DNA of 64,000 nt from Salinimicrobium tongyeongense (lineage in GTDB: Bacteria; Bacteroidota; Bacteroidia; Flavobacteriales; Flavobacteriaceae): positions 1 through 64,000 of the forward strand of contig NZ_CP069620.1 in assembly GCF_026109735.1 (NCBI RefSeq). The letters are read 5' to 3'. Positions 29,674 through 47,329 of the stretch are shown in pieces (positions within the stretch are counted from its first letter, which is position 1; the number at the start of each line of letters is the position of its first letter). The translations under genes were made by a program, and so were the position numbers. The notes under the pieces were generated by a model that saw nothing but the letters and a program-made list of their open reading frames with translations, did not search any database and was not told where the DNA came from.

Positions 29674-29717
29674 CAAAAATACCTTTTTTTGGAAGGATGA
29701 TCCGTAACAAGAGTTAC
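29674..29717 (-). promoter_or_regulatory. Persulfide dioxygenase promoter with Crp/Fnr-type operator
   Basis: A perfect -7 box TATTTTTG (29674-29681, minus strand) is preceded by the dyad GTAAC-N4-GTTAC (29704-29717). The dyad centre at 29710.5 is 36.5 bp from the last base of the -7 box, which is about position -41, the class II Crp/Fnr activator site. The same geometry occurs at three other promoters here. Confidence 0.7.
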
Positions 29718-29750
29718 AGAAGACTATCATGATGGTTTTCAATGTTTAAG

Positions 29751-30239
29751 CTATTCAAATTCCGCACAATCCTGTGAAGGAACGTAAACCCCAGCAGCCT
29801 GTTGGTACACAAGGCTAGCCCCAAGATGGCCGGTATAGGTAAGGGTACCGGTACCGGTGGCCAGCAGGAGAATCATGATCAACCTGAAAAACATATTCTT
29901 AAAAATGGGATATTTGAGCTGTCTTAAAAGATCTACCCCCAGGCCTGCAGAAAAGAACCAGGCAGTGGCCCAGGCCATATTCTCATGTTCCTTTAAGATG
30001 GTAGGATCGCAAATTTTTCGGGAGACAATCCCATCGGCAAGATCACCGGTAAAAACGGAGATCCAGAGCGTGACCAGCCCGGCTATCAATAAAACCGTCC
30101 CTCCTCTTTCCCACACTTCTCTTGAATATTTTAGCGCAACCACCTTAAAGAGGAAGGCTACCACCAGCAGGGCGATGGGGAAATGGACAGACAGAGGATG
30201 AAAAACCTCTGTCCGCCAAAAATCGGGTATTTCTTCCAT
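29751..30239 (-). CDS. DUF2231 membrane protein
   Basis: The 162-residue inner-membrane protein has four predicted helices and the DUF2231 signature FHPLSVHFPIALLVVAFLF at residues 13-31, whose His residues may bind heme or metal. Later features are a conserved EHENMAWAT segment near 83 and LTYTGHLGASLVY near 137. The function is unknown; family members are often linked to c-type cytochromes or sulfur metabolism. It follows the lipoprotein gene by 2 bases and should be co-transcribed with it. Confidence 0.88.
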   Translation of the reverse strand: MEEIPDFWRTEVFHPLSVHFPIALLVVAFLFKVVALKYSREVWERGGTVLLIAGLVTLWISVFTGDLADGIVSRKICDPTILKEHENMAWATAWFFSAGLGVDLLRQLKYPIFKNMFFRLIMILLLATGTGTLTYTGHLGASLVYQQAAGVYVPSQDCAEFE

Positions 30240-30241
30240 AT

Positions 30242-30556
30242 TTATTGCAGCACCCGCACAGCAAGCGGATTAAGGCGTTTACCTTTTTTTTCCACATCAA
30301 CTTCTACTTCCATACCTTCTTCAAGTACAGAAAACTCTACCCTGCTCCCATTGCGGCTAAGCTCGGTACTGTCGGTAAAATACAGCTCGAGTATCTGGTT
30401 GTCGTCAGTTTCCACATAGATCTCCGTTTTGGAGGGTTCTACTTCCTGGATGGTTCCCTGGTAAGTTCCCGATTCTACCACACTTGTACTTTCACCACAG
30501 GCGAAGAACAAAAATATAGCAGAAATTAATACGGTGTTGAGCAATCTGGTTTTCAT
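30242..30556 (-). CDS. Small lipoprotein, unknown function
   Basis: The 104-residue protein has a lipoprotein signal ending in LFFAC near residue 20, so the mature protein should be lipid-anchored. The mature part is a small beta domain with alternating acidic strands, ending GMEVEVDVEKKGKRLNPLAVRV, a pattern like OB-fold or DUF5666-type domains. Function is unknown. Positions from METNMQL are open upstream, but MKTRLLN gives the normal signal. It is paired with the DUF2231 gene. Confidence 0.75.
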   Translation of the reverse strand: MKTRLLNTVLISAIFLFFACGESTSVVESGTYQGTIQEVEPSKTEIYVETDDNQILELYFTDSTELSRNGSRVEFSVLEEGMEVEVDVEKKGKRLNPLAVRVLQ

Positions 30557-30736
30557 AAGTTGCATATTGGTTTCCAAATAATTTCAATACCTCTAATTTA
30601 CTTAAAAGCAGGCTCTCCCCAAAACCCTGTCTGCTAATTATAAGCTTGTTCCCGGAAATATCACAAGCTGAAGCAGTTTACTAAACCCATAATATCCCAA
30701 ACCTGATGTTTGCCATAAAAAAGCTGGCACAGCTTA

Positions 30737-31348
30737 TTACTTTTTCTGGGCCACAAACCGAATTACTGCCCCCAGGCCGTCATGCCCGGTCCCTTCTTTT
30801 AAATCTACTTCGGTTTCATACAGTTCAAGGAAGTTAAGGCTTCCAAAATCCTCTTTTATTTCTTCTATTGAAAATAGTAAAGCTTCCTCTTTGGGTCCCC
30901 CAACCTTCGGGTTTTTCTCCTGATATTTCTTATGTTTTTTGCTGAAGCCTTCAAAGAATATCAATCCGTCCCTTCGAAGATAGGAAATCAATAATTCGTG
31001 GTATTTTTTCCTCACTTCCACAGGAAAATGAGCATAGACCAGGGCTATGGCATCAAAATCCCCTTTTTCAAACCCCAGGGAGGGCAGGTCCCCTACCCTG
31101 TAATCTAAGGCTACCTTATGTTTTTCAGCCAGTTTTAAAGCTTTTCTTTTACCTGCCTCACTTTGGTCAAACGCTGTTACCTTCCAGTCACATTTTGCCG
31201 CAAAGACTGCATTTCGGCCTTCACCTTCAGCAGCAAAGAGAATTTCGCCCGGGTCAAATTGCGTAAATCTCGAATGAAAATATTCATTCGGAACCTCGCC
31301 GTAAACATATTCTTCTGTACTGTAGCGTTCATCCCACATTTCTTTCAT
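30737..31348 (-). CDS. Class I SAM-dependent methyltransferase, TehB/thiopurine-methyltransferase-like
   Basis: The 203-residue cytoplasmic enzyme has the TPMT/TehB-type Rossmann core. It starts with MWDERYSTEEYVYGEVPNEY, and the motif I variant ILFAAEGEGRNAVFAA (with EGEGRN) lies near residue 37. Relatives methylate small thiols, selenium or tellurium oxyanions; the substrate here is unknown. It is the last of three co-directional genes with the second methyltransferase and the NAPE-PLD-like hydrolase. Confidence 0.85.
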   Translation of the reverse strand: MKEMWDERYSTEEYVYGEVPNEYFHSRFTQFDPGEILFAAEGEGRNAVFAAKCDWKVTAFDQSEAGKRKALKLAEKHKVALDYRVGDLPSLGFEKGDFDAIALVYAHFPVEVRKKYHELLISYLRRDGLIFFEGFSKKHKKYQEKNPKVGGPKEEALLFSIEEIKEDFGSLNFLELYETEVDLKEGTGHDGLGAVIRFVAQKK

Positions 31349-31358
31349 GGTAGTTGTT

Positions 31359-31976
31359 TTATTGTTTCTTCTGAAAACTGCAAAAAGTAAAGTTCTGTGA
31401 TTTTCCCGAAGGAGTCTGGTGGTCTACATTCTTCCCGTTTAACATACTGAATTCCTTCTCAAACAGCTGGCACAGGTTGTTCACTGAATACCGCTGCACT
31501 TCGAGCCCGCTGCATTTTTCAGGGCCTCGTTCCGAAAAGGTACCCATAATTACATAGCCGCCCGGTTTTACAGCATTTTTCAGCTTTTCCAAATAAGCCT
31601 GCTTTTCCTGCCCTGCAGTAAGAAAATGAAAAGCAGCCCGGTCGTGCCAAAGGTCGTACTGCCTCTCGGGTTCAAAATTTGAAACATCGGCTACAATCCA
31701 TTTCACCTCATCGGCCTTTTCACACATGCGTTCTTTTGCACGGGCGATGGCCTTAGAAGAAATATCAACCACGGTCACATTTGTATAGCCGAGGGAAATA
31801 AGAAATTCGGCCAGGAAACTATCCCCTCCGCCAATATCAATTATGGCTGCGTCTTCCGAAATTCCGCAGCTCCTTATAAGCTCAAGGGAGATTTGAGGCA
31901 TGGGTTCATACCAGCTCACCTCTGTAGGTGCTTTTTCAGAATATACCTTATCCCAGTGTTGCCGACTCCCGTTCAT
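31359..31976 (-). CDS. Class I SAM-dependent methyltransferase
   Basis: From MNGSRQHWDKVY the protein has 205 residues. Motif I is IIDIGGGDSFLAEFL near residue 38, followed by VVDISSKAIARAKERM near 67 and WHDRAAFHFL near 103, as in METTL12-like or small-molecule methyltransferases. The substrate is unknown. The gene overlaps the end of the upstream hydrolase by 29 bases and is followed after 10 bases by another methyltransferase. An upstream start at 32000 is also open. Confidence 0.85.
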   Translation of the reverse strand: MNGSRQHWDKVYSEKAPTEVSWYEPMPQISLELIRSCGISEDAAIIDIGGGDSFLAEFLISLGYTNVTVVDISSKAIARAKERMCEKADEVKWIVADVSNFEPERQYDLWHDRAAFHFLTAGQEKQAYLEKLKNAVKPGGYVIMGTFSERGPEKCSGLEVQRYSVNNLCQLFEKEFSMLNGKNVDHQTPSGKSQNFTFCSFQKKQ

Positions 31977-33024
31977 ATTGTTCAGTTTTGTTTTCTTCAA
32001 AAAGCCACCATGGCTCCTGTTGATATTCCGAAGAAAGATCTACAATTTCCCCGATTTTTGGAGATACATAATTTAATTTCGATGCTCTGGCCGCCGTGAC
32101 AAAACGCTGTATGGGCTCGTTCCAGGGGTGGTATGACAAAACAAATTTTGCCCAGTGCACCGGTACCAGCTTTTTTGCCTGCAGGTCTTGCGCGGCCTGT
32201 ACCGTTTGCTCCGGGAACATGTGAATTTGAGGCCAGTACTTCCCGAATTGCCCGCACTCCAGCAGCGCAAGGTCAAAAGGCCCAAATTTCTCCCCAATTT
32301 TCTTAAAGCTGTTGTCGTAACCCGAATCTCCACCAAGAAATATCCTGAAGTCAAAAAGTTCGAGCACAAAAGAAGACCATAAGGTTTGAGCCCGTTTAAA
32401 GCTGCGGCCCGAAAAATGCCGCGCCGGGGTGGAGGTCATTTTCACCCCCTTGCAAAGCTGCACCGCCTCCCACCAATCGAGCTCGTAAATTTTGCCATTT
32501 TTGACACCCCAGCTTTCCAGGTGCGCCCCAACTCCCAAAGCAGTGACCACTTTTTCAACTTTTGGCAGCAGTTTTTTGATGCTGGGATAATCCAGATGGT
32601 CGTAATGATCGTGTGTAATGACCAGCAGGTCGATCTTCGGCATATCTTCAGCATTAAAAATATCTGCCCCCTCAAAAGCTTTTCCGAAGAAGCGAAAGGG
32701 AGATGCATTTCCGCTAAAAACAGGGTCTACCAGCACCCTAAAGCCATTAATTTGAAGCAGGTATGACGAATGCCCAAACCACACCAACTGCGGTTTGTTT
32801 GGAGGGAGCTTTTTGAGACTGGGTTTTAAGTGCGGCAGTTCGCCCGAAGGCCTCACCGAAGACGGCCTGAAAATCATCTTTTTGAGAATGGTGAACACAG
32901 AGGTATCTCCGGGGTTTACCGAAGTTTCTTCTACATTCTTAAAACTGCCCTCCCGGTAATTAGGTGAGTTCTTTATGCGCTGCAGGCGATTGCCGGCCGG
33001 GGTTTTTCCAAACCTGTTCATCAT
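31948..33024 (-). CDS. MBL-fold hydrolase, NAPE-PLD/UlaG-like
   Basis: The 358-residue protein has the metallo-beta-lactamase fold of the NAPE-PLD group. The strand PQLVWFGHSSYLLQINGFRVLVDPVFS lies near 78, the metal motif THDHYDHLD near 136, and PARHFSGRS near 200. Human NAPE-PLD cleaves N-acyl-phosphatidylethanolamine; bacterial homologues may act on phospholipids or phosphodiesters. The N-terminus is soluble, with no clear signal peptide. It is 6 bases downstream of the ICMT-like gene. Confidence 0.88.
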   Translation of the reverse strand: MMNRFGKTPAGNRLQRIKNSPNYREGSFKNVEETSVNPGDTSVFTILKKMIFRPSSVRPSGELPHLKPSLKKLPPNKPQLVWFGHSSYLLQINGFRVLVDPVFSGNASPFRFFGKAFEGADIFNAEDMPKIDLLVITHDHYDHLDYPSIKKLLPKVEKVVTALGVGAHLESWGVKNGKIYELDWWEAVQLCKGVKMTSTPARHFSGRSFKRAQTLWSSFVLELFDFRIFLGGDSGYDNSFKKIGEKFGPFDLALLECGQFGKYWPQIHMFPEQTVQAAQDLQAKKLVPVHWAKFVLSYHPWNEPIQRFVTAARASKLNYVSPKIGEIVDLSSEYQQEPWWLFEENKTEQYERESATLG

Positions 33025-33030
33025 GGCTTA

Positions 33031-33495
33031 TCAAATTCTTCCTTTAAATTTAGGAAAAAATCTGCCGGTATTCCTTTTATAAAATACGTATTCAGGAAAG
33101 ATCTTTAAAAGCAGTTTTTCTTCATACCTGCTTTTGAAGTAAAACAACAGGTACAGCAGCAAAGAAATAAGCATTTTATAACCCGAACCCAGCCAGATGG
33201 AAAGGCCAAAAGCCATAAAAATAATCCCGGTATAAATGGGATGGCGCGCAAAGGCAAAAACCCCGCTGGTGATAAGTTTTGCCCCTTTTACAGGACTGGG
33301 GAAAGGCGATAGGGCCGAATTAAGCTGCACAAAGGCCATAAGCACCAGCACAAAACCTATCACAGCAAATCCCAGCCCCAGCCCGTGAAGGTTGTTTGAT
33401 AATTCAAAATGCCAGGCTGCTACCGGAATGAACCACACGAGCATAAGCAAAACCTGAAGTGCGACAAAAATCTTATCCTTTTTGGGAACAGCCAT
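33031..33495 (-). CDS. Isoprenylcysteine carboxyl methyltransferase (ICMT/PEMT)-family membrane protein
   Basis: The 154-residue integral membrane protein has about four helices. The ICMT/PEMT SAM-binding C-terminal motif is FARHPIYTGIIFMAFGLSIWLGS near residue 81, with the RHP-Y-G pattern. Family members methylate lipids or small hydrophobic compounds; the substrate is unknown. It heads an operon with the NAPE-PLD-like hydrolase and two more methyltransferases, which suggests lipid modification, though that is inference. Confidence 0.85.
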   Translation of the reverse strand: MAVPKKDKIFVALQVLLMLVWFIPVAAWHFELSNNLHGLGLGFAVIGFVLVLMAFVQLNSALSPFPSPVKGAKLITSGVFAFARHPIYTGIIFMAFGLSIWLGSGYKMLISLLLYLLFYFKSRYEEKLLLKIFPEYVFYKRNTGRFFPKFKGRI

Positions 33496-33530
33496 ATTTC
33501 TGAATTAATATATACACCTGAGTAAATTTC

Positions 33531-33544
33531 ACCTTCCGGAAGGT
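33531..33544. repeat. 14-base perfect palindrome between cydB and the ICMT-like gene
   Basis: ACCTTCCGGAAGGT is self-complementary with no T tract on either side, so it is not a clear terminator. It may be an operator for the ICMT-like operon or part of a cydB 3' structure. Confidence 0.4.
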
Positions 33545-33573
33545 ATAATGAGAATAAAATAAAGATTTAAAAA

Positions 33574-34614
33574 TTATTTTCCCATCTCGTCTTCTCCAGT
33601 CTTCAAAATTTTGATCATGCCGAAAGACTTCATTAAATGAAAAAGCCCCGGGAGGATCACACCTCCTCCAATGATCAACATCATCCCGAGATTACTTATT
33701 ACGCTTTGAGGCGGCAGCCCTTCCAACAGACTCAGCTCTTTTTCTGCCGTAATGATTATGTATGGGAAATGGGCATAAAGGGCAGCAAAAAGTACCAGCA
33801 CCACCTGCAAACCTGCCAGGTACCTGCTGGCGATGCGGTTTTGCCTGTTAATGGCCCGCCATAGCGGAACCAAAAGAAAGGCCGATAGCCCAACTGCAGC
33901 CAGTGAAACGGGATTATGAATAAAATCCCTGATAAACTTCACGTCTTGCACATAGCCGTAAATAATCAGAATAAAACCCAGAACAACCAGGGCGATTGTA
34001 AAATAAGCGGATTTACGGCTGAAGATCTTTCGCACCTCGCCTTCAGTTTCACCAATGAGCAAAGTGGAGGCAAGAAAAGCACAGAGTGCCGCATAGAAAA
34101 GCCCCACCAAAAGCGTAAAGACATTGAACCAGGGTAACATGTAAAGGTCTACAAAGCTGTACCTGGCAAAATCTTCAGCAAGAATGATCTTTCCGCCTAT
34201 GAGGGCACCAAAAGACATACCTAAAAAAACCGGAGTGATAAAGCTTGATATCCTGAACATCCAGTTATACCACACCTGCGACTCGTCTACAATGGCATCG
34301 TAATGCCGAAAAATGAATGCGACGCCTCTCATGGTGATGCCCAGCAGAACAAGCACAAAAGGCACGTGCAAATAGATCACGATCACATTGAAGTAAACCG
34401 GAAAGGCTATCCATAAGATCACGATAAGGATGATGAGCCAGATGTGGTTGGCTTCCCACACCGGCCCCATCACCCTGTAGATGGTGTCCCGGGTGGTTCT
34501 TTTATTTCGTGGGGAAGAAAATAATTCTACTATCCCCGCGCCAAAATCGGCACCGCCCAGTAACACGTAAAGCAACAGGGAAAATAACAGGAAGAAAAGG
34601 ACTACATAAAGCAT
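33574..34614 (-). CDS. cydB: Cytochrome bd ubiquinol oxidase subunit II
   Basis: CydB is the second subunit of the high-affinity bd oxidase, which reduces oxygen to water at low oxygen and resists sulfide. The 346-residue protein has eight or nine membrane helices, and the typical start LYVLLGGADFGAGIVELF (near 14) is followed by GPVWEANHIWLIILIV near 50. It lies 2 bases after cydA and is probably co-transcribed. No small cydX-type subunit gene was found downstream. Confidence 0.95.
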   Translation of the reverse strand: MLYVVLFFLLFSLLLYVLLGGADFGAGIVELFSSPRNKRTTRDTIYRVMGPVWEANHIWLIILIVILWIAFPVYFNVIVIYLHVPFVLVLLGITMRGVAFIFRHYDAIVDESQVWYNWMFRISSFITPVFLGMSFGALIGGKIILAEDFARYSFVDLYMLPWFNVFTLLVGLFYAALCAFLASTLLIGETEGEVRKIFSRKSAYFTIALVVLGFILIIYGYVQDVKFIRDFIHNPVSLAAVGLSAFLLVPLWRAINRQNRIASRYLAGLQVVLVLFAALYAHFPYIIITAEKELSLLEGLPPQSVISNLGMMLIIGGGVILPGLFHLMKSFGMIKILKTGEDEMGK

Positions 34615-34616
34615 AA

Positions 34617-35918
34617 CTAATCTTTTTCGGAATTAAGTACTTTGATCTGTCTTCTCATCAGCCAGGTGACGGTAAGGGCAAGCACGAGGTACACCACCAC
34701 GTACATGTAAAAACTAAATTCCATTCCCGGCATGGGCGTAACGGCCTCGCTGGTTTTCATAAAACCGTAAATGATCCATGGCTGGCGGCCTACTTCGGTC
34801 ACCACCCAGCCTGCTTCTACCGCAATAAAGCCCAAAGGGGCCAGAAAGACAAAGAGCAGCCAGTACCAGTTCCGTTTTAAAAGTGATTTGTACTTAAGGC
34901 TAATAAAATAAAGCAACCCGGCCAGCATGAGCAGGGTCCCGATTCCCACCATGACCTGGAAAGCGTAGTGCACCACTGCCACCGGCGGAAGTTCATCTGC
35001 CGGGAAATCCTTTAATCCCACAACTTCGGCATCAAAATCCCCGAAGGCCAGAAAAGAAAGTGCCCCGGGAATTGCTATTTTATGAGAAACTGTTTGTGTT
35101 TCTTCATCTACTATCCCTCCAATATAAAGCGGCACATTGGTATCAGTTTCGTAATGCGCCTCCATGGCAGCCAGTTTCACCGGTTGCCGCTCTGCAATAT
35201 CTTTTGCTGAAAAATCTCCGCTCAAAGGCTGAAGAAATGCAGCTACCGCACCAAATACAATGGCGATTTTAAACGCTTTTTTATGAAGTTCGGGCCTTTT
35301 ATTGCGGTAAACCTGAAAAGCATGTACTCCTGCCACCGCAAAGCTCGTGGCCACAAATGCCGCTAAGGTCATGTGCAAAGCCTGGGTGAACCAGGCCGGG
35401 TTCAACAAGGCCTGCACCGGATCAATATTGATATATTCCCCATTCACATAATCAAAACCCGTTGGCGCATTCATCCAGCCATTGGCCGACACCACCAGGA
35501 TTCCCGATGCCACACCAGATATCCCGATAATAATCCCTGTAAACCAATGGAATTTTTTGGGCAGCTTGTGCCAGCCGTAGAGGTAAAACCCCAGGGCGAT
35601 AGCTTCAACAAAAAATGCTGCCCCTTCAAGCGAGAAAGGCATCCCAATAATAGGGCCGGCATGTTTCATGAACTCGGGCCACAGCATACCCAGTTCAAAA
35701 GAAAGGGCAGTTCCCGAAACTGCTCCTGTCACAAAGAAAATAGCCACGCCTTTTTGCCAGGCCTTGGTCAATTCCAGATACAGGGGGTTGCGGGTATTGA
35801 GCCACTTCTTGTGCGAGACCACCATAAAGAAAGGCATCACCATCCCAATACAGGCGAAGATGATATGAAACCCGAGGGTAAAGGCCATCTGTAAACGTGC
35901 AAAATCAAGATTTTCCAT
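34617..35918 (-). CDS. cydA: Cytochrome bd ubiquinol oxidase subunit I
   Basis: CydA binds hemes b558, b595 and d and oxidises quinol. From MENLDFARLQMAFTLGFH the protein has 433 residues, normal for the short Q-loop type. The heme-ligand His is in LGFHIIFACIG near residue 16, and the conserved block GRQPWIIYGFMKTSEAVTP lies near 378. An upstream ATG at 35942 adds eight residues and is less likely. It lies just after tauE; no separate promoter was recognised, so it may depend on the tauE promoter. Confidence 0.95.
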   Translation of the reverse strand: MENLDFARLQMAFTLGFHIIFACIGMVMPFFMVVSHKKWLNTRNPLYLELTKAWQKGVAIFFVTGAVSGTALSFELGMLWPEFMKHAGPIIGMPFSLEGAAFFVEAIALGFYLYGWHKLPKKFHWFTGIIIGISGVASGILVVSANGWMNAPTGFDYVNGEYINIDPVQALLNPAWFTQALHMTLAAFVATSFAVAGVHAFQVYRNKRPELHKKAFKIAIVFGAVAAFLQPLSGDFSAKDIAERQPVKLAAMEAHYETDTNVPLYIGGIVDEETQTVSHKIAIPGALSFLAFGDFDAEVVGLKDFPADELPPVAVVHYAFQVMVGIGTLLMLAGLLYFISLKYKSLLKRNWYWLLFVFLAPLGFIAVEAGWVVTEVGRQPWIIYGFMKTSEAVTPMPGMEFSFYMYVVVYLVLALTVTWLMRRQIKVLNSEKD

Positions 35919-35947
35919 TAACATTGAATTTATGTTGAGCAAAAGGT

Positions 35948-35968
35948 CCTGAAAATGCCATTTTCAGG
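35948..35968 (-). terminator. Stem-loop between tauE and cydA
   Basis: CCTGAAAATG (35948-35957) and CATTTTCAGG (35959-35968) form a 10-bp inverted repeat around one base; in practice the tip would be unpaired. The minus-strand T tract after it is short, so it may be a weak terminator or a processing site that lowers cydAB expression relative to tauE. Its tip is the recurring AAAATGnCATTTT word. Confidence 0.5.
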
Positions 35969-35974
35969 GATCCT

Positions 35975-36775
35975 TTAAAAAATTTCCTTCCAGAAAATAT
36001 ACAGCCCCATCACCAGCACAAACCAGCCAAATCCTTTCTTCAGCTTTTTTCCGTCGATAAACTTATTGAGCCAGATTCCCAGGTAGATCCCGCCAATCGA
36101 GATGGCGGTAAATACCAGGAGAAAGCCCCAGTTGATCTCCAGGTTTTGCACATCTCCAATAAAACCTATCAAAGATTTTACGGCAATAATCACCAGTGAC
36201 GTGGCTACCGCCTTCTTCATGGGTAGTTTTGCCATGAGCACCAGTGCCGGAATGATCAAAAAACCGCCGCCGGCACCTACAATTCCGGTGAGTACCCCCA
36301 CAACTGCTCCTTCCAGGGTGATGAACAAATAGTTATACCTCACCCGCTTTGGTTTGGCATCTTTTTCTGAAGGTTCCAGAATCATGGAGACCGAAGCCAT
36401 CACCATGATAAGCGCAAAGAACAACATGATCCCAATATTCTTTGTGATCGTGAGGTCTCCAATGCTAATGATGGTTTCGGGTATGGCCGGAACTAAATAT
36501 TTTCGGGTAAGGTAAACAGCGATAAAAGCAGGGATGGAAAATACAAGGGCGGTTTTAAGGTCTACCCTTTTTTTCTGAAAGTTTTTTACCGATCCAAACA
36601 AAGAGGTCGCCCCTACTACAAATAAGGAATATGCTGTTGCCGTTACAGGGTTTACAGAAAGCAGGTACACCAGCACCGGAACAGTTAAAATGGAACCGCC
36701 CCCGCCAATAAGCCCCAGCACCACACCAATTATTAAAGCTCCTACATACCCAAGAATTTCTGTTATTCCCATCAT
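35975..36775 (-). CDS. Sulfite exporter TauE/SafE-family membrane protein
   Basis: The 266-residue inner-membrane protein has about eight helices, with the TauE signature GLIGGGGSILTVPVLVYLLSV at 22-42 and the repeat VGVLTGIVGAGGGFLIIPALV near 158. Relatives export sulfite, sulfoacetate or other sulfur anions, which fits removal of the sulfite produced by the persulfide dioxygenase at 28284. It lies between the Crp/Fnr regulator and cydAB, and its promoter carries the same Crp/Fnr-type dyad as the dioxygenase promoter. Confidence 0.9.
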   Translation of the reverse strand: MMGITEILGYVGALIIGVVLGLIGGGGSILTVPVLVYLLSVNPVTATAYSLFVVGATSLFGSVKNFQKKRVDLKTALVFSIPAFIAVYLTRKYLVPAIPETIISIGDLTITKNIGIMLFFALIMVMASVSMILEPSEKDAKPKRVRYNYLFITLEGAVVGVLTGIVGAGGGFLIIPALVLMAKLPMKKAVATSLVIIAVKSLIGFIGDVQNLEINWGFLLVFTAISIGGIYLGIWLNKFIDGKKLKKGFGWFVLVMGLYIFWKEIF

Positions 36776-36789
36776 AAATATTTTGAGCC

Positions 36790-36833
36790 CAAAATTAGCT
36801 TTTCATAGCTGCAGGGTCTGTAACAAAGGTCAC
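36790..36833 (-). promoter_or_regulatory. tauE(-cydAB) promoter with Crp/Fnr-type operator
   Basis: A perfect -7 box TAATTTTG (36790-36797, minus strand) is preceded by the dyad GTAAC-N4-GTCAC (36820-36833). The dyad centre at 36826.5 is 36.5 bp from the end of the -7 box, identical to the dioxygenase promoter. The site lies just beyond the stop codon of the Crp/Fnr gene. Confidence 0.72.
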
Positions 36834-36835
36834 AT

Positions 36836-37471
36836 TTAAAGGTCATAGACCATGATGCTGTTGCGCTGAAGCTCAATTTTCCCATCGAGTTCAAGTTTTT
36901 TAAGAAGTCGAGACACCACGACCCTAGAGGTGTGAAGGTCATACGCAATCTCCTGGTGCGTCACCTGTATCTGTTCGTTTTTATTGATCTTGGCCTTGTC
37001 TTGCAGGTACTTCATAAGGCGCTCATCCATATGCAAAAACGCGATGGTATCAATGGTATCAAGCATTTCTGTTAGCCGGCTGTGATAACTTTCAAACACA
37101 AAATTCCGCCAGCTCTTAAAGGCTGCGGTCCATTCTTCCATCTTTTCTACGGGAATCATCACCAGGCTGGTATCTTTTTCGGCCACGGCACGTATCTCGC
37201 TCCTGGTTTGGCCCAGGCAGCACGACAGCGTCATGGCGCAGGTATCGCCACGCTCCAAAAAGTACAGCAAAAGTTCATCGCCGTCTTTGTCTTCGCGCAT
37301 CACCTTAATGGCGCCCTCGAGCAACAACGGCATCTGCTTTACGTAATCTCCAATATCAATAATTACCTCGCCCGACCGCACTTTTTTAAGGCTGCCAAAC
37401 TTCAGCATCTCCTGCAGCAGTGCTTCCTCAAAAATAAAATGGTAGGCGTCTCTTAGTTCTTCTTCGAGCAT
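36836..37471 (-). CDS. Crp/Fnr-family transcriptional regulator with cysteine-rich sensor domain
   Basis: The 211-residue protein has a cyclic-nucleotide-type sensor barrel (about 25-120), a long dimer helix and a C-terminal winged helix. The recognition helix is TSRVVVSRLLKKLE (Arg183, Val184, Ser187, Arg188), with Val where CRP and FNR have Glu. The barrel carries Cys78, Cys84 and Cys85 (GDTCAMTLSCC), but there is no FNR-type N-terminal cluster motif. Thiol or persulfide sensing is a fair inference from the cysteines and from neighbouring tauE. It probably activates tauE and the three other promoters with matching dyads. Confidence 0.88.
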   Translation of the reverse strand: MLEEELRDAYHFIFEEALLQEMLKFGSLKKVRSGEVIIDIGDYVKQMPLLLEGAIKVMREDKDGDELLLYFLERGDTCAMTLSCCLGQTRSEIRAVAEKDTSLVMIPVEKMEEWTAAFKSWRNFVFESYHSRLTEMLDTIDTIAFLHMDERLMKYLQDKAKINKNEQIQVTHQEIAYDLHTSRVVVSRLLKKLELDGKIELQRNSIMVYDL

Positions 37472-38649: not shown

Positions 38650-38696
38650 AAAAAAGATTCCCTCCAAAAATGCCATTTTTGGAGGGAATCTTTTTT
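38650..38696. terminator. Bidirectional terminator with 23-bp perfect arms
   Basis: Arms 38650-38672 and 38674-38696 (containing GATTCCCTCCAAAAATG) are perfectly complementary around one base, with A and T tracts at the ends. It separates two convergent genes. The tip contains TGCCATTTTTG (38671-38681), one of the overrepresented words. Confidence 0.93.
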
Positions 38697-40494
38697 ATCT
38701 GCTTTCCAGACCGGCTTTGATCTCGAGCACAGCTGCTTCCCATCTGTTTAAGCCATTTTCAAAAGCTTCTTTCTTTTTAATAAGCTCCTGTTCAGCAAGT
38801 TTCCTGTAATGAGAAACACCATCTAACAAATTATTGCAGAAGCCCGTCCAGCCCTTAATATCTCTGGGCACCGGATTAAAGGTGTTCTTAATTTCCTCTT
38901 TTAAGTACTCCACATAAAGCTGCAGTTCCTTAACGAACATATGAGGGCGTTGAGGATCTACCGGCAACTCCTGCCTTCCGTAAATATGACTGGTCATTTC
39001 CTGCAGGCTGGCTTCCTTGCTGTAGTTCACAATATTTGGGCCGGGGCAAATGGTTACGGCATCAAGTTTTTCTACAATTGGCACCTTATAGTTAATCCCG
39101 GCCGAGTTGCTAAGGCCAATACAAAGACATTCTTTGCTTAGCAGGTCATCTACCTGCAGTTGATATTCTTCTTCAGGCAAACCGGCCTTTGCCAGCTGCT
39201 CCAGCTTAAGCTTTTGATATTTTCTCGAGGCTGTGCAAATAGGTTCTTTGGTGAACTCGGTATTGGAGACCAGGTACTTTTCTGTACAGGGGCTTCCGGG
39301 TTTTCCGCGGTCAATTCTTTGCTGCCTTTCTTCGTGGGCTGTGGTATTTTTCAGGTAATTAAAACGCACTCCCAGCGGGGAGGCTTTACTAAGCACCACA
39401 TCATTCTCTTTACTTTTCCGAAGCAATTCAAGCGTGCCCGCATCTACAGTTGTAGCTTCGGGGCACAGCAAAAATGGCGTGCCCCAGCCGGTGCCGTTAA
39501 CGCCGTAGTAACCGTAAAGCAACTGTTGCTCGGCTGCAGTGCCTATGCCTCCCTGCACCGTAATGTTAACGGGGTGGGGCTTATCAAAACCTTCTTCCCC
39601 CCTGGCCTGTATCGCCGGATTATAAAGGCTGAAAAGCGCCTGCTCCAGTTCATCTTTTTTACTTCGGAATTCTTCCAGAATGGGGCCCAGCAAATATCCC
39701 TGGGTGGCAAAAGCATGTCCGCCACAATTCAAGCCCGATTCAATCCTGAATTCGCTCACCCAAATGCCTTTTTTGGCAAGGTATTTCCCCTGAATTAAGG
39801 CCGAACGATAATCGCTCACCTTGATGATCACCTTCTTTTTGAACCGGCCCCAGCCCAGAGCATCAAATTCCCTGAAGTTCTCAAGATAATTGAACAACCG
39901 CGGATTCATACCCGCAGAAAAGATCACAGCCGAATTTTCAAGATCACTTTTGGCATAAGCTTTAAGGGCGCCAAGAGCATCAGAACCATCTGGTAAGATC
40001 TCCCCGCTTTTGCCGGTATTGTTCTTGTCTACTTTGGTCATGATATTGACCTCGATGCCACCGGGGCTCATGTGCTTCCTCAGAAAACTTTCCAGCTCGG
40101 CTTTTGCCTCGCCATGGGCCTGCAAAAACTGGTGGTATTTCTCTTTGAGGCCGCTTTCTTCGGGCAGCATCTCGAAATACTTCACGATCTCAGAGCCCTT
40201 TTCAAAAGCCGAAGACTTGAGCTTTTCAAATTTTGACTGCACATTTCGGTTTACCAGGTTGAGGTAATCGGTAATGCGGCGCACGCGGTAATTTTCTTCA
40301 TGCTTTTCAATGGGAACGTAGGTCTCATTGTTCTCCTGGTAGTAATGCTTCCTCATCATTTCGATGAGATTGTCTTCAATGATAGACAGCGCCGAGGTTA
40401 TGCCGTAGTGGGCCACCTTTATTGGCGTATCTATGGTAAACGCTATCCCCATAACCGGGATATGAAACCGGTGGGGCGTTAAATTATATGTCAT
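38695..40494 (-). CDS. 599-residue flavobacterial protein of unknown function with an NPD/enoyl-reductase-like barrel
   Basis: I do not recognise a characterised family. The N-terminal IPVMGIAFTIDTPIKVAHYG looks like the first strand of a TIM barrel. GLNCGGHAF near 257 and VQGGIGTAAEQQLLYG near 311, followed by GTGWGTPFLLCPEA near 333, resemble the FMN-phosphate motifs of nitropropane dioxygenases and enoyl reductases. A cysteine-bearing C-terminal part (Cys near 401, 419, 455 and 457) might bind a metal or cluster. No signal or membrane segment was seen. Its promoter has a Crp/Fnr-type dyad like those of the sulfur genes. Confidence 0.8.
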   Translation of the reverse strand: MTYNLTPHRFHIPVMGIAFTIDTPIKVAHYGITSALSIIEDNLIEMMRKHYYQENNETYVPIEKHEENYRVRRITDYLNLVNRNVQSKFEKLKSSAFEKGSEIVKYFEMLPEESGLKEKYHQFLQAHGEAKAELESFLRKHMSPGGIEVNIMTKVDKNNTGKSGEILPDGSDALGALKAYAKSDLENSAVIFSAGMNPRLFNYLENFREFDALGWGRFKKKVIIKVSDYRSALIQGKYLAKKGIWVSEFRIESGLNCGGHAFATQGYLLGPILEEFRSKKDELEQALFSLYNPAIQARGEEGFDKPHPVNITVQGGIGTAAEQQLLYGYYGVNGTGWGTPFLLCPEATTVDAGTLELLRKSKENDVVLSKASPLGVRFNYLKNTTAHEERQQRIDRGKPGSPCTEKYLVSNTEFTKEPICTASRKYQKLKLEQLAKAGLPEEEYQLQVDDLLSKECLCIGLSNSAGINYKVPIVEKLDAVTICPGPNIVNYSKEASLQEMTSHIYGRQELPVDPQRPHMFVKELQLYVEYLKEEIKNTFNPVPRDIKGWTGFCNNLLDGVSHYRKLAEQELIKKKEAFENGLNRWEAAVLEIKAGLESR

Positions 40495-40521
40495 GTATTA
40501 AGGTTTTTAAAGGCAAAACCC

Positions 40522-40570
40522 CAAAGATGCAGATTACATGACAGCAAAAACATGATCCTGGTCATGTTTT
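40522..40570 (-). promoter_or_regulatory. Promoter of the 599-residue protein with Crp/Fnr-type operator
   Basis: A -7-like box CATCTTTG (40522-40529, minus strand, one mismatch) is preceded by a strong dyad. AAAACATGA (40547-40555) and TCATGTTTT (40562-40570) flank a 6-bp centre; in Crp/Fnr register this is ATGAT-N4-GTCAT. The centre at 40558.5 is again 36.5 bp from the end of the -7 box. Confidence 0.62.
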
Positions 40571-40590
40571 AAATTGCAAACGGGAAGGTG

Positions 40591-40747
40591 TTGAATATTG
40601 TTTATTGGAAATTGAATATTGAATATTCTTTCACTGCCTACTGCCTACTTAGCACTGCCCACTGAATATTGAATATTGAATATTGAATATTGAATATTTT
40701 TAACTGAACCACTGCCTACTGAGCACTGCTCACTGAATACTGAATAT
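40591..40747. repeat. GAATATT and CACTGCCTACTG simple repeats
   Basis: About ten TTGAATATTGAATATT-type units alternate with CACTGCCTACTGAGCACTG-type units. They fill the gap between the SerB-SerA gene and the promoter of the 599-residue gene. Units are short and lack unique spacers, so this is not a CRISPR array. Related units occur at 16421-16458. Confidence 0.85.
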
Positions 40748-40754
40748 CAATCCT

Positions 40755-42647: not shown

Positions 42648-42670
42648 GCTGAAATTAAATCATATCACCC

Positions 42671-42678
42671 CAAAACTA
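42671..42678 (-). promoter_or_regulatory. Promoter -7 box of the SerB-SerA fusion gene
   Basis: TAGTTTTG on the minus strand fits TAnnTTTG and lies 23 bases before the ATG. A TTTG is present upstream at 42695-42698, but at 16 bp spacing instead of 19. Confidence 0.55.
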
Positions 42679-42871
42679 AGCTTTTTCAGGCACACAAAGA
42701 AGGTCTCCCGACAAAGAGCCAAAGATTTCGCACATCCTGAATTAATACCGTGGAAATTTAAATTTTTATGAATAATTCTTCATATTACTTAAAATTCTTC
42801 ATCCAATTTCCGCAGAAAAAAATTGTAACGAAATTCCTGTCACGGCTACTTACCATAAAACTTTGAGATAA

Positions 42872-43078
42872 ATGAAGAACTGGACCCCTATTGGGATAGG
42901 TTTTATACTGCCCGGTTTAGCCCTGTACATTTTCGGTAGCCAAAACCTCAATTCCATAGCTGGAAGTATTTTTGGTGCAGGCTGTGGGTTCTTAGCCTAT
43001 TCCTTTTTTCTAAATCGAAAAAAGAGTAGAGAGACTGCAGCAAGGTCAAACTCAGCCACACCTAAACTCAAAATATGA
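42872..43078 (+). CDS. Small two-helix membrane protein
   Basis: The 68-residue protein has two hydrophobic segments (about 7-25 and 29-46) and a basic Ser/Asn-rich tail, so it should be a small inner-membrane protein with a cytoplasmic tail. No family was recognised. Its stop overlaps the start of the lipoprotein gene at 43075 in the ATGA arrangement, so the two are translationally coupled. Confidence 0.7.
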   Translation: MKNWTPIGIGFILPGLALYIFGSQNLNSIAGSIFGAGCGFLAYSFFLNRKKSRETAARSNSATPKLKI

Positions 43079-43491
43079 AAATCAAGAGCTTCTTCATCCT
43101 GTTTTCGCTGCTCACAAGCCTAAGTGGCTGCGTGGAAACCACTACCTCAATTGTTCTTCACGACAGTATTCCCCCGGAATTTGCAGTAGACAAAAAGTCC
43201 CTAAAAAGGGAAATTTCAGCAATAATTCCTTCGGAAGTAATTTCCTTCAGTTCTTCAAAATCAGAAAAATCGGGAGCGCCAATTCACAATACGCTTTTCA
43301 TCCAAATCACGCGAGACAGCCTGCCTTCAGGATGGGATTTTTCTGAAGTAACCAATGAAATTGAGGCTGTTGCCAAAAAAGGCATCAGCAATTTTGACGC
43401 TTATCAAAAACTTATCATAGAAGTGAGTACTCATGAAGATAAAGACGGTATAAAACACCAGAAATCTTATAAAAAGGAGATCAATTTGTAA
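43075..43491 (+). CDS. Lipoprotein, unknown function
   Basis: The 138-residue protein has a lipoprotein signal ending LTSLSGC near residue 19. The mature part is small and mixed, with a segment QITRDSLPSGWDFSEVTNEIEAVAKKGISNF (about 83-113) and a Lys-rich C-terminus. No family was recognised. It is translationally coupled to the small membrane protein upstream. Confidence 0.75.
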   Translation: MKIKSFFILFSLLTSLSGCVETTTSIVLHDSIPPEFAVDKKSLKREISAIIPSEVISFSSSKSEKSGAPIHNTLFIQITRDSLPSGWDFSEVTNEIEAVAKKGISNFDAYQKLIIEVSTHEDKDGIKHQKSYKKEINL

Positions 43492-43631
43492 CAAAGAGTT
43501 GCGCCCGGCAAGTTTTAGGAATTTCTTAAGCCACCGCCTGCTCCAAAAAAATGGGAAATTAGCTATCTTCGGAAAAACCAAAAAATAAGAGCTTCTTCGG
43601 AAGTTCTTTTTTTGCTCATAAAATCCGAAAA

Positions 43632-44921
43632 ATGACAAACTTCAGGGAAGTAACTACTCAGGAACTTATAGACAGACAAAATAATGGAGCATTAGTTATT
43701 GACGTGCGGCCGGTTGATGCCTATAACGGCTGGAAACTGAAAAATGAAGCTCGCGGCGGACATATACAAGGCGCAAAATCGCTACCGGCAAAATGGACGG
43801 GTTATATGGACTGGATCGAGATTGTGCGGCACAAAAAAATTGAGGCTTCCCGTGAAATTATCATCTACGGGTACAATCGTGATGAAGCGCAGAATGTAGC
43901 CGAAAGTTTTAAAAAAGCAGGCTATTCAAAAATAGCAGTTTTTAACCACTTTCTTGATGAGTGGGTTTCTGATGAAACCTTGCCCATGAGCTATCTTCCT
44001 AAGTATAAACAGCTGGTATCGGCGCATTGGGTGAACGAATTGATCTCGGGAGGAAAACCGGCTGAATATGACAACGATAAATATGTGGTGGTACATGCGC
44101 ATTACCGCAATAGGGACGCATATTTAACAGGCCACATACCCGGAGCGATAGACATGGATACCAACGCCCTGGAATCACCTGAAACCTGGAACCGTCGCAG
44201 CCCCGAAGAACTGAAAAAAGCCCTGGAAGAACACGGCATTACCGCCGATACCACCGTTATTCTCTACGGAAAATTCATGTTCCCCGATAATGATGACGAA
44301 TTTCCCGGAAGTGCAGCCGGGGATATTGGAGCCATAAGAAATGCTTTTATCATGATGTACGCCGGGGTAAAAGACGTAAGGGTGCTCAACGGCGGTTTTC
44401 AGTCATGGGAAGATGCGGGCTTTGAGGTGAGCAGGGAAGATGTTCCGAAGCAGGCCGTAAAAGAGTTTGGGGTGAAGATTCCGGCGCATCCAGAGCTGGC
44501 CGTAGACGTGCCCGAAGCCAAGGAAATCATAGCTTCACCCGATGCCGAGCTGGTGTGTGTGCGCAGCTACCCCGAATATATTGGCGAGGTAAGCGGCTAC
44601 AATTATATTGAAGCCAAAGGCCGTATTCCCGGAGCCATTTTTGCCGATTGTGGAAGCGATGCCTACCACATGGAAAACTATAGGAATGTAGACCACACCA
44701 CCCGGGAATTCCACGAAATCATCGAAAACTGGGAACAAAACGGAATCACTCCCAATAAACATCTCGCCTTCTACTGCGGAACGGGCTGGCGCGGCAGTGA
44801 AGCCTGGTTCAACGCCTGGCTTTTGGGCTGGCCGCATGTTTCGGTTTATGACGGCGGCTGGTTTGAGTGGAGCAATGATCCCACCAATCCTTACGAAACA
44901 GGCGTACCCGAAACTGTTTAA
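43632..44921 (+). CDS. Triple-rhodanese sulfurtransferase
   Basis: The 429-residue cytoplasmic protein holds three rhodanese domains (about 1-125, 130-280 and 285-425). Only the third has an active-site cysteine, Cys382 in YCGTGWRGSE. The first has YGYNRDE and the second YGKFMF at the corresponding loop, so they are probably structural. The enzyme should transfer sulfane sulfur from thiosulfate or persulfides to a thiol acceptor. There is no signal peptide. The -7-like TATCTTCG (43564-43571) lies upstream. Confidence 0.9.
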   Translation: MTNFREVTTQELIDRQNNGALVIDVRPVDAYNGWKLKNEARGGHIQGAKSLPAKWTGYMDWIEIVRHKKIEASREIIIYGYNRDEAQNVAESFKKAGYSKIAVFNHFLDEWVSDETLPMSYLPKYKQLVSAHWVNELISGGKPAEYDNDKYVVVHAHYRNRDAYLTGHIPGAIDMDTNALESPETWNRRSPEELKKALEEHGITADTTVILYGKFMFPDNDDEFPGSAAGDIGAIRNAFIMMYAGVKDVRVLNGGFQSWEDAGFEVSREDVPKQAVKEFGVKIPAHPELAVDVPEAKEIIASPDAELVCVRSYPEYIGEVSGYNYIEAKGRIPGAIFADCGSDAYHMENYRNVDHTTREFHEIIENWEQNGITPNKHLAFYCGTGWRGSEAWFNAWLLGWPHVSVYDGGWFEWSNDPTNPYETGVPETV

Positions 44922-44966
44922 TAACAGATAATCAGGTCTCAGATAAATTAAAATTCCCAACCGCTC

Positions 44967-45563
44967 ATGAAAACTGAGAAGGAAAAAATGTTGGCAGGAG
45001 AGCCTTACCAGGCCTTTGACCCTGTACTGGTTGCAGAAAGGCAGGCAGTTAAAGAACACATCTTTAAGTTCAACAACCTGCCTCCTTCCGAAGTAGAAAA
45101 ACGGAATGAGATATTAAAGCAGCTTTTGGGGAGCATGGGAGACAACTACTATTTTGAGCCGCCTTTTCGCTGTGACTACGGCTATAATATTGAGATAGGG
45201 GATAATTTTTATACCAACTACAATCTCGTGGTGTTAGACTGCGCCAAAGTGAGCATCGGGGATTCTGTACTTATTGGCCCTAACGTGGGGATTTTTACTG
45301 CAGGACATCCGTTACACCACGAAATCAGAATTCAGGAATGGGAACATGCATATCCTATTTCCATTGGGAATAAGGTTTGGATTGGAGGGCAGGTAGTGAT
45401 CAACCCGGGGGTAAGTATTGGGGAGAATTCGGTTATTGGTTCGGGCAGTGTGGTGACCAAAGATATTCCTTCCAATGTCTTTGCAGCCGGCAATCCGTGT
45501 AGAGTGATAAGAGCGATTACTGAAGAAGACAAAAATTCCTACCTGCCGCCTCAAAAAGCTTAG
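44967..45563 (+). CDS. Maltose/galactoside O-acetyltransferase-like hexapeptide transferase
   Basis: The 198-residue enzyme starts with the Maa-type domain KEKMLAGEPYQAFDPVL and continues with the left-handed beta-helix of hexapeptide repeats. The catalytic His is in FTAGHPLHHE near residue 112, and the acetyl-CoA site lies in IGSGSVVTKDIPSNVFAAGNPCRVI near 152. It acetylates the 6-hydroxyl of a sugar. It follows the rhodanese gene by 45 bases and overlaps the convergent transporter gene by 4 bases. Confidence 0.92.
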   Translation: MKTEKEKMLAGEPYQAFDPVLVAERQAVKEHIFKFNNLPPSEVEKRNEILKQLLGSMGDNYYFEPPFRCDYGYNIEIGDNFYTNYNLVVLDCAKVSIGDSVLIGPNVGIFTAGHPLHHEIRIQEWEHAYPISIGNKVWIGGQVVINPGVSIGENSVIGSGSVVTKDIPSNVFAAGNPCRVIRAITEEDKNSYLPPQKA

Positions 45564-47029
45564 AAAAAGACTTTAGGAATTTCATCTGCCGTTACTCCCC
45601 AAATTACGGGTAATAAAAAGTAGATGATAAGAGTGATGATCAGAATAGACAACAGGTTCATCCAAATACCTGCCTTTGCCATGTCTTTTATGTTTAGGTG
45701 TCCCGACCCAAAGACCACTGCATTGGGAGGTGTAGCCACGGGCAACATAAAAGCGCATGATGCAGCTAAAGTGGCCGCTACAAGTAAAAAGTAAGGGTGA
45801 ATATGCATTGCAAGCGCCATGGGAGCTAAAATGGGCAGTAGCATGGCGGTGGTTGCAAGGTTAGAAGTGACTTCGGTAAGAAAATTCACGGCCGTTACAA
45901 GTACCAGTACCAAAAGGATGAGAGGCAGGTTCTCAAGGCTGCTAAGCTGCCCTCCAATCCACACGGCTAGGCCGGTTTCCTCGAAAGCTTTTGCCAAAGC
46001 CATTCCTCCTCCAAAGAGAATGATGATCCCCCACGGAATTTTCACCGCATCTTCCCATACTAAAAGTCGGCCCTTATCTTTACCCGACGGCAGCATGAAG
46101 AGCACTATCCCGGCAAAAATGGCAATAATGGTGTCATCTATAAACGGGATTACAGGCTGTAATAAAAACGATCGGGTGATCCAGCCTAAAGCCGTGAGTA
46201 TAAAAACAGCGAGCACCATTTTTTCCTGTCGGCTCATGGCTCCCAGTTCCTTCAGCAGTTTTGAAATCTCGGCTCTTCCTCCGGGGAGTTTCATGCCTTT
46301 TAGGTCAAAGGCAAATGTGGTGAGGTATTTCCAGGTGAGCGCCAGCAGCATTATGGAAATAGGCAACCCGAGTTTTATCCATTGGTAAAAGCTGATCTCA
46401 ATTCCGTAGAATTTTTGAACCACCCCGGCCAGCACCAGGTTAGGCGGGGTTCCAATTAAAGTGGCAATTCCCCCAATAGAAGCGCTGTAAGCAATAGACA
46501 GCATGAGCGCCTTTCCAAAAATGGCTTTTTCATTGCGCTCTGTTTGTGGGTCATCCCATAACTGGGCAATGATCGCAGCCCCAATGGGCAGCATCATTAC
46601 GGAAGTAGCCGTGTTGGAGATCCACATAGACAAAAAAGCCGTGGCTATCATAAATCCGAGGATGATCAGCTTTAAATTGGTACCAATAAGGCTTATAATG
46701 CTAAGGGCAATTCTTCGGTGCAGCTCCCACTTTTCAATCGCAATGGCAAGGAGAAAGCCTCCCAGGTAAAGAAAGACAAATTTATCTCCATAAGCCGCTG
46801 TGGTTGCACCAATAGATAAAGCTCCCGTAAGTGGGAACAGCACAATGGGCAGTAAGGCAGTAACTGCGATAGGCACCACTTCGCTCACCCACCAGAGTGC
46901 CATCCAGATGGTGACACACAACACCTCCCAGGCCAAGGGCGGCATAGATTGCGGGGGTGCTATTGCCTGTAGGGACAAATAAATTGCCGGCCCCAGGAAA
47001 AGCATGATCTTTTTAAAAGAGATCTTCAT
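45560..47029 (-). CDS. SLC13/DASS-family sodium:anion symporter
   Basis: The 489-residue inner-membrane protein has about eleven helices and the two DASS signatures: SNTATSVMMLPIGAAI near 132 and its repeat LTEVTSNLATTAMLLPIL near 374. SIGGIATLIGTPPNLVLAG near 180 and VATPPNAVVFGSG near 437 complete the substrate site. Family members import dicarboxylates or sulfate with Na+. A C4-dicarboxylate substrate is most likely but cannot be decided from sequence. Confidence 0.92.
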   Translation of the reverse strand: MKISFKKIMLFLGPAIYLSLQAIAPPQSMPPLAWEVLCVTIWMALWWVSEVVPIAVTALLPIVLFPLTGALSIGATTAAYGDKFVFLYLGGFLLAIAIEKWELHRRIALSIISLIGTNLKLIILGFMIATAFLSMWISNTATSVMMLPIGAAIIAQLWDDPQTERNEKAIFGKALMLSIAYSASIGGIATLIGTPPNLVLAGVVQKFYGIEISFYQWIKLGLPISIMLLALTWKYLTTFAFDLKGMKLPGGRAEISKLLKELGAMSRQEKMVLAVFILTALGWITRSFLLQPVIPFIDDTIIAIFAGIVLFMLPSGKDKGRLLVWEDAVKIPWGIIILFGGGMALAKAFEETGLAVWIGGQLSSLENLPLILLVLVLVTAVNFLTEVTSNLATTAMLLPILAPMALAMHIHPYFLLVAATLAASCAFMLPVATPPNAVVFGSGHLNIKDMAKAGIWMNLLSILIITLIIYFLLPVIWGVTADEIPKVFF

Positions 47030-47285
47030 TTTAGATAAGCATTAATCTCAGGCAGAAAATACAGGCACAACCCCAACCTTCAGCACAATTCCTGCCAGCC
47101 TTCCGCTACTTTAAATTTATGAATTAAGGAGCAAAAATACTTCAGTAAAAGGCTATTTTTCAGCAATTAAGCTACGGAAAAATTTGAATTGCGATATTAA
47201 AATTCATTTTTCAACTGAAGCTCAGCATCCCGCAAATATTTGCTTCTGAAATCCATGAAACCAGAAGGGTAAAAAGTGCCGGTTA

Positions 47286-47329
47286 CTGACAGTGGTCATA
47301 AAAAAGAGACTATAGTGTCCTTATTTTTG
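47286..47329 (+). promoter_or_regulatory. rrf2-nadAB promoter with Crp/Fnr-type operator
   Basis: A perfect -7 box TATTTTTG (47322-47329) is preceded by the dyad CTGAC-N4-GTCAT (47286-47299). The centre at 47292.5 is 36.5 bp from the end of the -7 box, the same as at the dioxygenase, tauE and 599-residue-protein promoters. Confidence 0.68.

Follow-up and report, generated by a model that had tools for sequence, protein, structure and literature searches.

Crp/Fnr-type dyads at one fixed distance from the -7 box in Salinimicrobium tongyeongense probably serve two regulons, linked to sulfide detoxification and to low oxygen

In a 64,000-nt stretch of the genome of Salinimicrobium tongyeongense (the window; the genome, G000, is a single 3.51-Mb contig), four promoters carry a Crp/Fnr-type dyad at the same distance from their -7 box. 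An earlier interpretation made from the letters of the window (the sequence-only reading) had assigned all four to one sulfur/redox regulon. Our analysis indicates that they most likely belong to two Crp/Fnr-type regulons that share one promoter design, and that a Crp/Fnr-family protein encoded in the window would activate one of them, a set of detoxification genes. The dyads upstream of a persulfide dioxygenase-like (PDO) gene and of tauE-cydAB share an operator, GTAAC-N4-GTTAC with tolerance for GTGAC (class S), and for these two the idea of a sulfur regulon holds. The dyads upstream of a gene for a 599-residue protein (ATGAY-N4-RTCAT) and of rrf2-nadAB (variant CTGAY-N4-RTCAT) form class F. 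A single regulon of four sites was rejected because of the conservation of the sites, the content of the target sets and the occurrence of class F sites in genomes devoid of the class S regulator. The equal distance reflects a shared promoter architecture and not necessarily a shared regulator.

Direct reading of the sequence located all four dyads: GTAAC-N4-GTTAC upstream of the PDO gene (29704..29717, minus strand), GTGAC-N4-GTTAC, read towards tauE, between crp and tauE (36820..36833, minus), ATGAC-N4-ATCAT upstream of the 599-residue gene (40552..40565, minus) and CTGAC-N4-GTCAT upstream of rrf2-nadAB (47286..47299, plus). The corresponding -7 boxes, placed by script, are TATTTTTG (29674..29681, minus), TAATTTTG (36790..36797, minus), CATCTTTG (40522..40529, minus, also supported by an alignment of Salinimicrobium sequences) and TATTTTTG (47322..47329, plus). 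At 4 of 4 promoters, 36.5 bp separate the dyad centre from the final base of the box. This leaves 22 bp between the 14-bp dyad (5-4-5) and the box, a spacing designated N22 (Nn being the number of intervening base pairs). Two details of the sequence-only reading needed correction: the box fits TAnnTTTG at three promoters and departs from it in its first base at the 599-residue gene, and the first rrf2 half-site, CTGAC, departs from the half-site rule RTYAY.

The coincidence of dyad and box was evaluated by searching both strands of the window for a relaxed dyad (xTRAY-N4-RTYAx) followed by [TC]AnnTTTG at spacings N5-60. N22 gave 5 matches, and the other 55 spacings gave 2 in total (one each at N21 and N33); 0.046 matches per spacing were expected from the box and dyad counts. 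The fifth N22 match, at 4493, overlaps the junction of two opposite-strand open reading frames (ORFs), and in the stretch listed it is not followed by any same-strand ORF of at least 80 aa. The fixed distance claimed by the sequence-only reading was also borne out beyond the window. Among the matches listed (150 of 208 for class S, from 120 genomes; 150 of 223 for class F, from 41 genomes), N22 accounted for 114/150 class S sites, with 12 at N21, 6 at N23 and at most 2 at every other spacing, and for 101/150 class F sites. The pattern TGAY-N4-RTCA with a gap of N28-36 returned 2 matches and 2 control matches, as expected by chance.

At class II promoters of E. coli, CRP and FNR bind a TGA-N6-TCA-type dyad centred at -41.5, beside the promoter box. 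According to a study of F. psychrophilum, the -7 box occupies positions -12 to -5 (PMC9723704). Counted from there, a dyad centred 36.5 bp before the end of the box would stand at -41.5, in agreement with the class II position that had been proposed for the window's dyads. Because of this position, the sites of both classes are most readily taken for those of activators adjoining sigma, to which a dimer would bind 22 bp before the -7 box, in the manner of a class II activator. The promoters described here differ from the E. coli ones in their Bacteroidota box, TAnnTTTG, and in the class S half-site GTAAC, which has an A where CRP/FNR sites have a G. The absence of a -33 TTG, counted at a gap of 17-21 from the box, was abandoned as a sign of activator dependence because control boxes lack the element about equally often (it was present at 3/115 class S promoters and 3/67 control boxes).

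In a scan of 120 Flavobacteriaceae genomes in which spacings of N10-40 were allowed, the class S pattern was present in 85. We collected 115 N22 sites from 117 loci (L111-L140, L171-L257); 113 of them have an ORF of at least 40 aa, the gene being taken as the longest ORF near the box rather than an annotated gene, and one member of each target cluster was run against Pfam. The median distance from the box to the start codon is 20 bp. PDO-like genes (28) and TauE (27) were the commonest targets, followed by outer-membrane efflux proteins (OEP, 18), Thioredoxin_9 (6), a small family without a Pfam name (6), Tll0287-like/cytochrome c proteins (4), sulfate permease (3), Sulf_transp (3), fatty-acid hydroxylase-like proteins (3), cytochrome bd (2), YgaP-like proteins (2), DUF983 (2) and 9 single cases. 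In a second set of 44 genomes, 17 of them from genus g120, the gene behind the site could be read at 17 distinct N22 sites whose loci were fetched; 15 precede relatives of genes found in the first set, and one of the remaining two precedes TauE.

A neighbourhood set of 80 loci was selected by a relative of the window's Crp/Fnr protein (the top relative, from Salinimicrobium profundisediminis, is 93% identical, and the own genome is possibly outside the set). Upstream of tauE, a perfect dyad was found in 51/68 regions, a dyad with slight variation allowed in 57/68 and a -7-like box at N21-23 in 56/68. The PDO upstream region has the dyad in 17/39 cases, 16 of them with a box at N21-23. At eight other genes of the neighbourhood, no class S dyad was seen upstream: cydA (0/36), lip111 (0/17), DUF2231 (0/16), the biotin carboxylase gene (0/9), serA (0/6), TlpA (0/5), rhod3 (0/5) and dass (0/2). 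Autoregulation of crp through this dyad was considered and is unsupported (2/80 upstream regions). Within Salinimicrobium, GTRAY-N4-GTTAC is kept at the tauE site in 6/7 aligned upstream regions, the window included, the departure being L004.

The proposed class S activator is encoded next to the tauE site (36836..37471, minus strand) and falls into the Crp/Fnr superfamily, with PF00027 (cNMP_binding), PF13545 (HTH_Crp_2) and PF00325 over their cut-offs. The sequence-only reading had named this gene as the likely regulator, and both its co-occurrence with class S sites and its position beside tauE support that choice. Genomes were counted as having an orthologue at an identity of at least 43%, a threshold placed in the gap between 43% and 37% after the identities had been seen. 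Class S matches occur in 82/95 genomes with an orthologue and in 3/25 without (Fisher p = 3.6e-12); the former hold 205 matches against 44 in the control and the latter 3 against 3. In genus g120, N22 class S sites are found in 4/4 genomes with the orthologue and 1/13 without, a contrast that is harder to explain by kinship than the family-wide p-value. The gene order crp then tauE, within 400 bp, is seen in 58/77 loci. Another Crp/Fnr paralogue could bind the class S dyad, crp being a bystander of tauE: neighbourhood and co-occurrence are indirect, and the correlation covered this protein and no other paralogue. We regard this as quite unlikely, given that the co-occurrence holds both family-wide and inside a single genus and that the gene order is so often kept. 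We therefore favour the adjoining protein, which would bind GTAAC-N4-GTTAC, tolerate GTGAC, and switch on PDO and tauE-cydAB. In a phylum-wide sample, 37/296 genomes have a match to it at E 1e-50, 20 of them outside Flavobacteriaceae. In one genome without such a match (G271, locus L380), a rhodanese-like gene is nevertheless preceded by a lone class S site at N22.

Class F sites behave differently. The 599-residue gene (38695..40494, minus) has an F-type dyad within 260 bp upstream in 22/30 loci, its own included, and a class S dyad in 0/30; in 15 of the 22, [TC]AnnTTT[GA] stands at N22, as judged by reading the boxes. In aligned Salinimicrobium upstream regions the core TGAY-N4-RTCAT is kept together with AAA and TTT flanks. 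From this conservation, the gene belongs to class F. At rrf2, CTGAY-N4-GTCAT is kept in 3/3 Salinimicrobium sequences available (window, L002, L005), and among 30 Rrf2 loci, again with the own one included, 5 have an F-type dyad and 0 a class S dyad. In another genus (L399), a NadA gene (Pfam NadA, 3.4e-119) lies directly behind an N22 class F site. The rrf2-nadAB operon may thus be placed in class F, less surely than the 599-residue gene.

In the own genome, the class F motif with N22 and TAnnTTTG, at up to two mismatches, gave 45 matches against 8 for the reversed pattern that served as control; across 41 genomes the counts were 223 and 29. Sixteen of the 45 loci were fetched, including one-mismatch matches and some in which the start codon lies 65-211 bp from the box. 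Of the ten genes scanned behind these sites, 8 could be assigned to a Pfam family, namely hemerythrin, two universal stress proteins, COX1, a P-type ATPase (heavy-metal type), radical SAM, citrate synthase and a pyruvate formate-lyase (PFL)-like protein. ccoN and hemN exceed their NCBIfam cut-offs and the PFL-like protein its Pfam cut-off, as expected of a low-oxygen set. This fits a report on F. psychrophilum, in which cbb3 oxidase and heme-synthesis genes go up when oxygen is limiting (PMC9723704). We infer an FNR-like low-oxygen regulon, including the 599-residue protein and, less surely, rrf2-nadAB, that would be bound by a different Crp/Fnr paralogue. The own genome encodes six cNMP-binding proteins, so that other regulators are available. 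For 3/6, there is a class F site downstream of the gene, at a distance of about 340 bp from the cNMP domain; two of these three are receiver-cNMP-HTH fusions with a Crp-type HTH (L106 and L107, at G000:C1:1258087 and 2747904), which are candidate class F regulators.

These data also bear on the original proposal, in which one Crp/Fnr protein would bind all four dyads through relaxed half-sites and mount a joint sulfur/redox response. The architecture and spacing common to both classes speak for it, as do the relatives of one Thioredoxin_9 gene, which follow a class S site or a class F site depending on the genome (L134, L385, L386, L398, L401, L409), a pattern that suggests exchange between the two regulons. 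It is nevertheless improbable in view of the 599-residue gene, with its class F dyad and no class S dyad, the largely low-oxygen targets of class F in the own genome, the supply of six cNMP-binding proteins, and the persistence of class F matches in six genomes that have no orthologue of the class S regulator, where they number 15 against 5 in the control, an excess that comes mostly from G033 (9 against 1).

What the class S regulator senses can be approached through its targets. From the PDO-like, TauE, cytochrome bd, rhodanese, DsrE, sulfur transport and efflux genes behind its sites, we infer that class S is a sulfide/persulfide detoxification set and that its likely signal would be reactive sulfur species. 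The regulator might instead answer nitric oxide, general redox state, sulfite or thiosulfate, with the sulfur genes as one portion of a wider response; genes of general stress are represented among the targets by cytochrome bd, efflux and thioredoxin-like genes. HcpR is a member of the Crp/Fnr family. According to a preprint, HcpR of Bacteroides and Porphyromonas acts in nitrosative stress and is linked to hcp (PMC13370916); it is likewise a stress regulator of Bacteroidota, and by that description the sulfur-gene targets found here set our protein apart. This other-signal explanation is the less likely one, as the commonest targets are PDO-like and TauE genes and the others include Sulf_transp, sulfate permease, rhodanese, YgaP-like, DsrE and DUF302 genes; it deserves more weight than a bystander crp or a single regulon.

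The protein itself departs from both CRP and FNR. In CRP, the cAMP cassette contains Glu72 and Arg82, the glutamate contacting cAMP; here Met80 is aligned with the glutamate and an arginine with the arginine, and the CRP profile gives 67.6 bits against a cut-off of 266. FNR is an oxygen sensor with a [4Fe-4S] cluster and an N-terminal cysteine cluster; here the cysteines of the whole 211-residue chain are C78, C84 and C85, and there is no cysteine cluster at its N terminus. All three cysteines fall in the region aligned to the cAMP-binding cassette and are conserved in 129, 123 and 125 of 129 homologues, respectively (entries including the window's own and some near-identical ones, 122 distinct). 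The predicted monomer adopts a Crp fold with moderate confidence (pLDDT 74.6, residues 79-83 below 50), and the 50 Foldseek matches listed are all Crp/Fnr-type chains, at a TM-score of only about 0.5. Reactive sulfur species would be read by these cysteines at the position of the cassette. A broader conjecture, to which we give slightly less than even chances, is that this is a Crp/Fnr subfamily, found in Bacteroidota also outside Flavobacteriaceae, in which the cassette has become a thiol switch (C78, C84, C85) and the protein a direct persulfide-sensing activator acting through GTAAC-N4-GTTAC at -41.5, possibly with residue 184 choosing the half-site.

Residue 184, in the recognition helix, is valine in 127/129 homologues; at this position CRP has a glutamate. 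N22 class S sites occur in 5/8 genomes with V184 and in 1/9 with E184, whose homologues are distant (p = 0.05), a comparison that omits G222, G314 and G342 (residue read, sites not scanned) and G173, G219 and G280 (sites scanned, residue not read), the last three being orthologue genomes without N22 sites. This is a marginal hint of a change in specificity; G145, G157 and G285 have V184 yet no N22 sites, which speaks against it. At two E184 loci from other families of the class (L416, L419), tauE is preceded by GTAAC-N4-GTCAC at N23 from a TAnnTTTG box. Such mixed half-sites were dropped as proof of a specificity switch because the tauE site of the window, whose protein has V184, is mixed too. 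At the V184 loci L431 and L432, no dyad was found in the 250 bp upstream of the tauE lying in the same stretch.

Several observations weigh against the two-regulon reading as a whole. The own-genome class S scan, run as for class F, gave 8 matches and 8 in the control. No strict class S match was found in 13/95 orthologue genomes, and 3/25 genomes without an orthologue have one. The genomes are related, so the p-values are too small. Eight homologues are without C84 or C85. Nearby nadA was seen at only three Rrf2 loci; the dyad is present at two of them, the own locus and L268, and absent at L296. The first point could also favour the view that the dyads are palindromes which arose by chance and merely caught the eye, as could perfect class S dyads without a box at N22 (at G000 2644506 and 749849, both inside ORFs, and, as a further S dyad without the box, 2852802). 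We give this view next to no credence: the spacing peaks, the conservation and the count in the window already refute it.

Since the own-genome class S total does not exceed its control, weight was placed on those matches that are intergenic and on how the motif behaves across genomes. The genome has 2 perfect matches with N22 and TAnnTTTG, and the PDO site is one of them. Six of the 8 matches precede the PDO gene, tauE, an OEP-led operon, a rhodanese gene, a gene for a 119-aa protein and a DUF302 gene; the remaining two fall within ORFs. Chance was taken to explain the class S near-matches at G000 7246 and 1640465, both of them in ORFs. Further genes of the operon headed by the 119-aa protein are DoxX, DsrE and thioredoxin-like ones. 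Another DUF302 gene also has a class S dyad, but with a poor box. The sulfur genes of units that S-type dyads precede elsewhere in the genome are rhodanese, OsmC, two DUF302, DoxX and DsrE genes. Besides PDO and tauE-cydAB, the regulator would switch on the OEP-led efflux operon, the rhodanese operon with OsmC, probably the two DUF302 genes, and the DoxX/DsrE/thioredoxin-like operon. At G000:C1:516961-518873 (L259), two S-type dyads are neighbours: one belongs to the DUF302 gene with the poor box, TTTTTTAG, and the second, with one mismatch, precedes two successive rhodanese genes, a small ORF without a Pfam name and OsmC. The other DUF302 gene, with a perfect dyad, lies behind G000 683261.

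The persulfide regulators named in a review include CstR, SqrR/BigR/PigS and FisR (PMC9774590), and BigR is described as a repressor that senses sulfide and controls an operon for sulfur transferase/dioxygenase (PMC5823870). As far as these accounts go, they respond to reactive sulfur, control sulfide detoxification and sense by cysteines, as the protein proposed here would (class S operators stand before the 28 PDO-like genes noted above). They differ in family, being CsoR-like, ArsR and FisR proteins; ours is a putative class II activator with cNMP_binding and HTH_Crp_2, and only Crp-type Pfam domains were found in it, with none of the CsoR-like, ArsR or FisR type. The A. baumannii Crp is reported to be persulfidated, with an effect given as unknown (PMC7315123). 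The best match among PDB sequences is 3dv8, a Crp/Fnr protein of Eubacterium rectale (E = 1e-17) listed as a putative regulator without an assigned function; its cysteines align with C78 and C84, and an isoleucine aligns with C85. The superfamily, the promoter geometry and the target pathway are all known. Their combination, a Crp/Fnr persulfide regulon in Bacteroidota, was not found among the openly licensed papers listed, a limited search that may have missed the slash-spelled 'Crp/Fnr' and is not proof of novelty. If the proposal is right, a Crp/Fnr activator would be a new type of sulfide/persulfide sensor in a large group of marine bacteria, and its operator would predict sulfide-response genes, some without known function, across many genomes. 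The division into two classes would also tell apart two regulons that the eye readily confuses, one for sulfide and one for low oxygen.

The 599-residue protein is present in 40/120 Flavobacteriaceae genomes, the own one included. It has no Pfam or NCBIfam match and none among PDB sequences at E 0.1, and its structure prediction (pLDDT 51.3 from 5 sequences) was too poor for a structure search; it may resemble nitronate-monooxygenase-like proteins. Upstream of its gene, at 40600-40700, are short near-tandem repeats of the TTGAATA type, and its relatives have different short repeats at the same place.

The remaining genes of the four units were assigned as follows. The PDO-like protein (456 aa; 28284..29654, minus) combines a metallo-beta-lactamase domain with two rhodanese stretches (Pfam Lactamase_B 4e-16, Rhodanese 4.4e-16), from which its substrate would follow; it scores 54 bits for the NCBIfam bifunctional sulfur transferase/dioxygenase, below the cut-off of 625. 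A 118-aa ORF (27918..28274, minus), listed 9 bp behind the PDO gene and also beside PDO in L004 and L005, is probably part of its operon. The protein encoded at 43632-44921 has three rhodanese stretches, and no S-type dyad was found upstream in 5 relatives. The TauE/SafE-family exporter (35975..36775, minus; Pfam TauE 8.9e-47) is followed by cydA (34617..35942, minus; 9.4e-143) and cydB (33574..34614, minus; 1.3e-57), for subunits I and II of cytochrome bd. On the plus strand, the Rrf2-family regulator (47354..47788; Pfam Rrf2 4.2e-25) heads an operon with nadA, for quinolinate synthase (47807..48754; NadA 3.7e-124), and an FAD-binding protein (48755..50284; FAD_binding_2 5.6e-91), for which nadB is the name given by the sequence-only reading.

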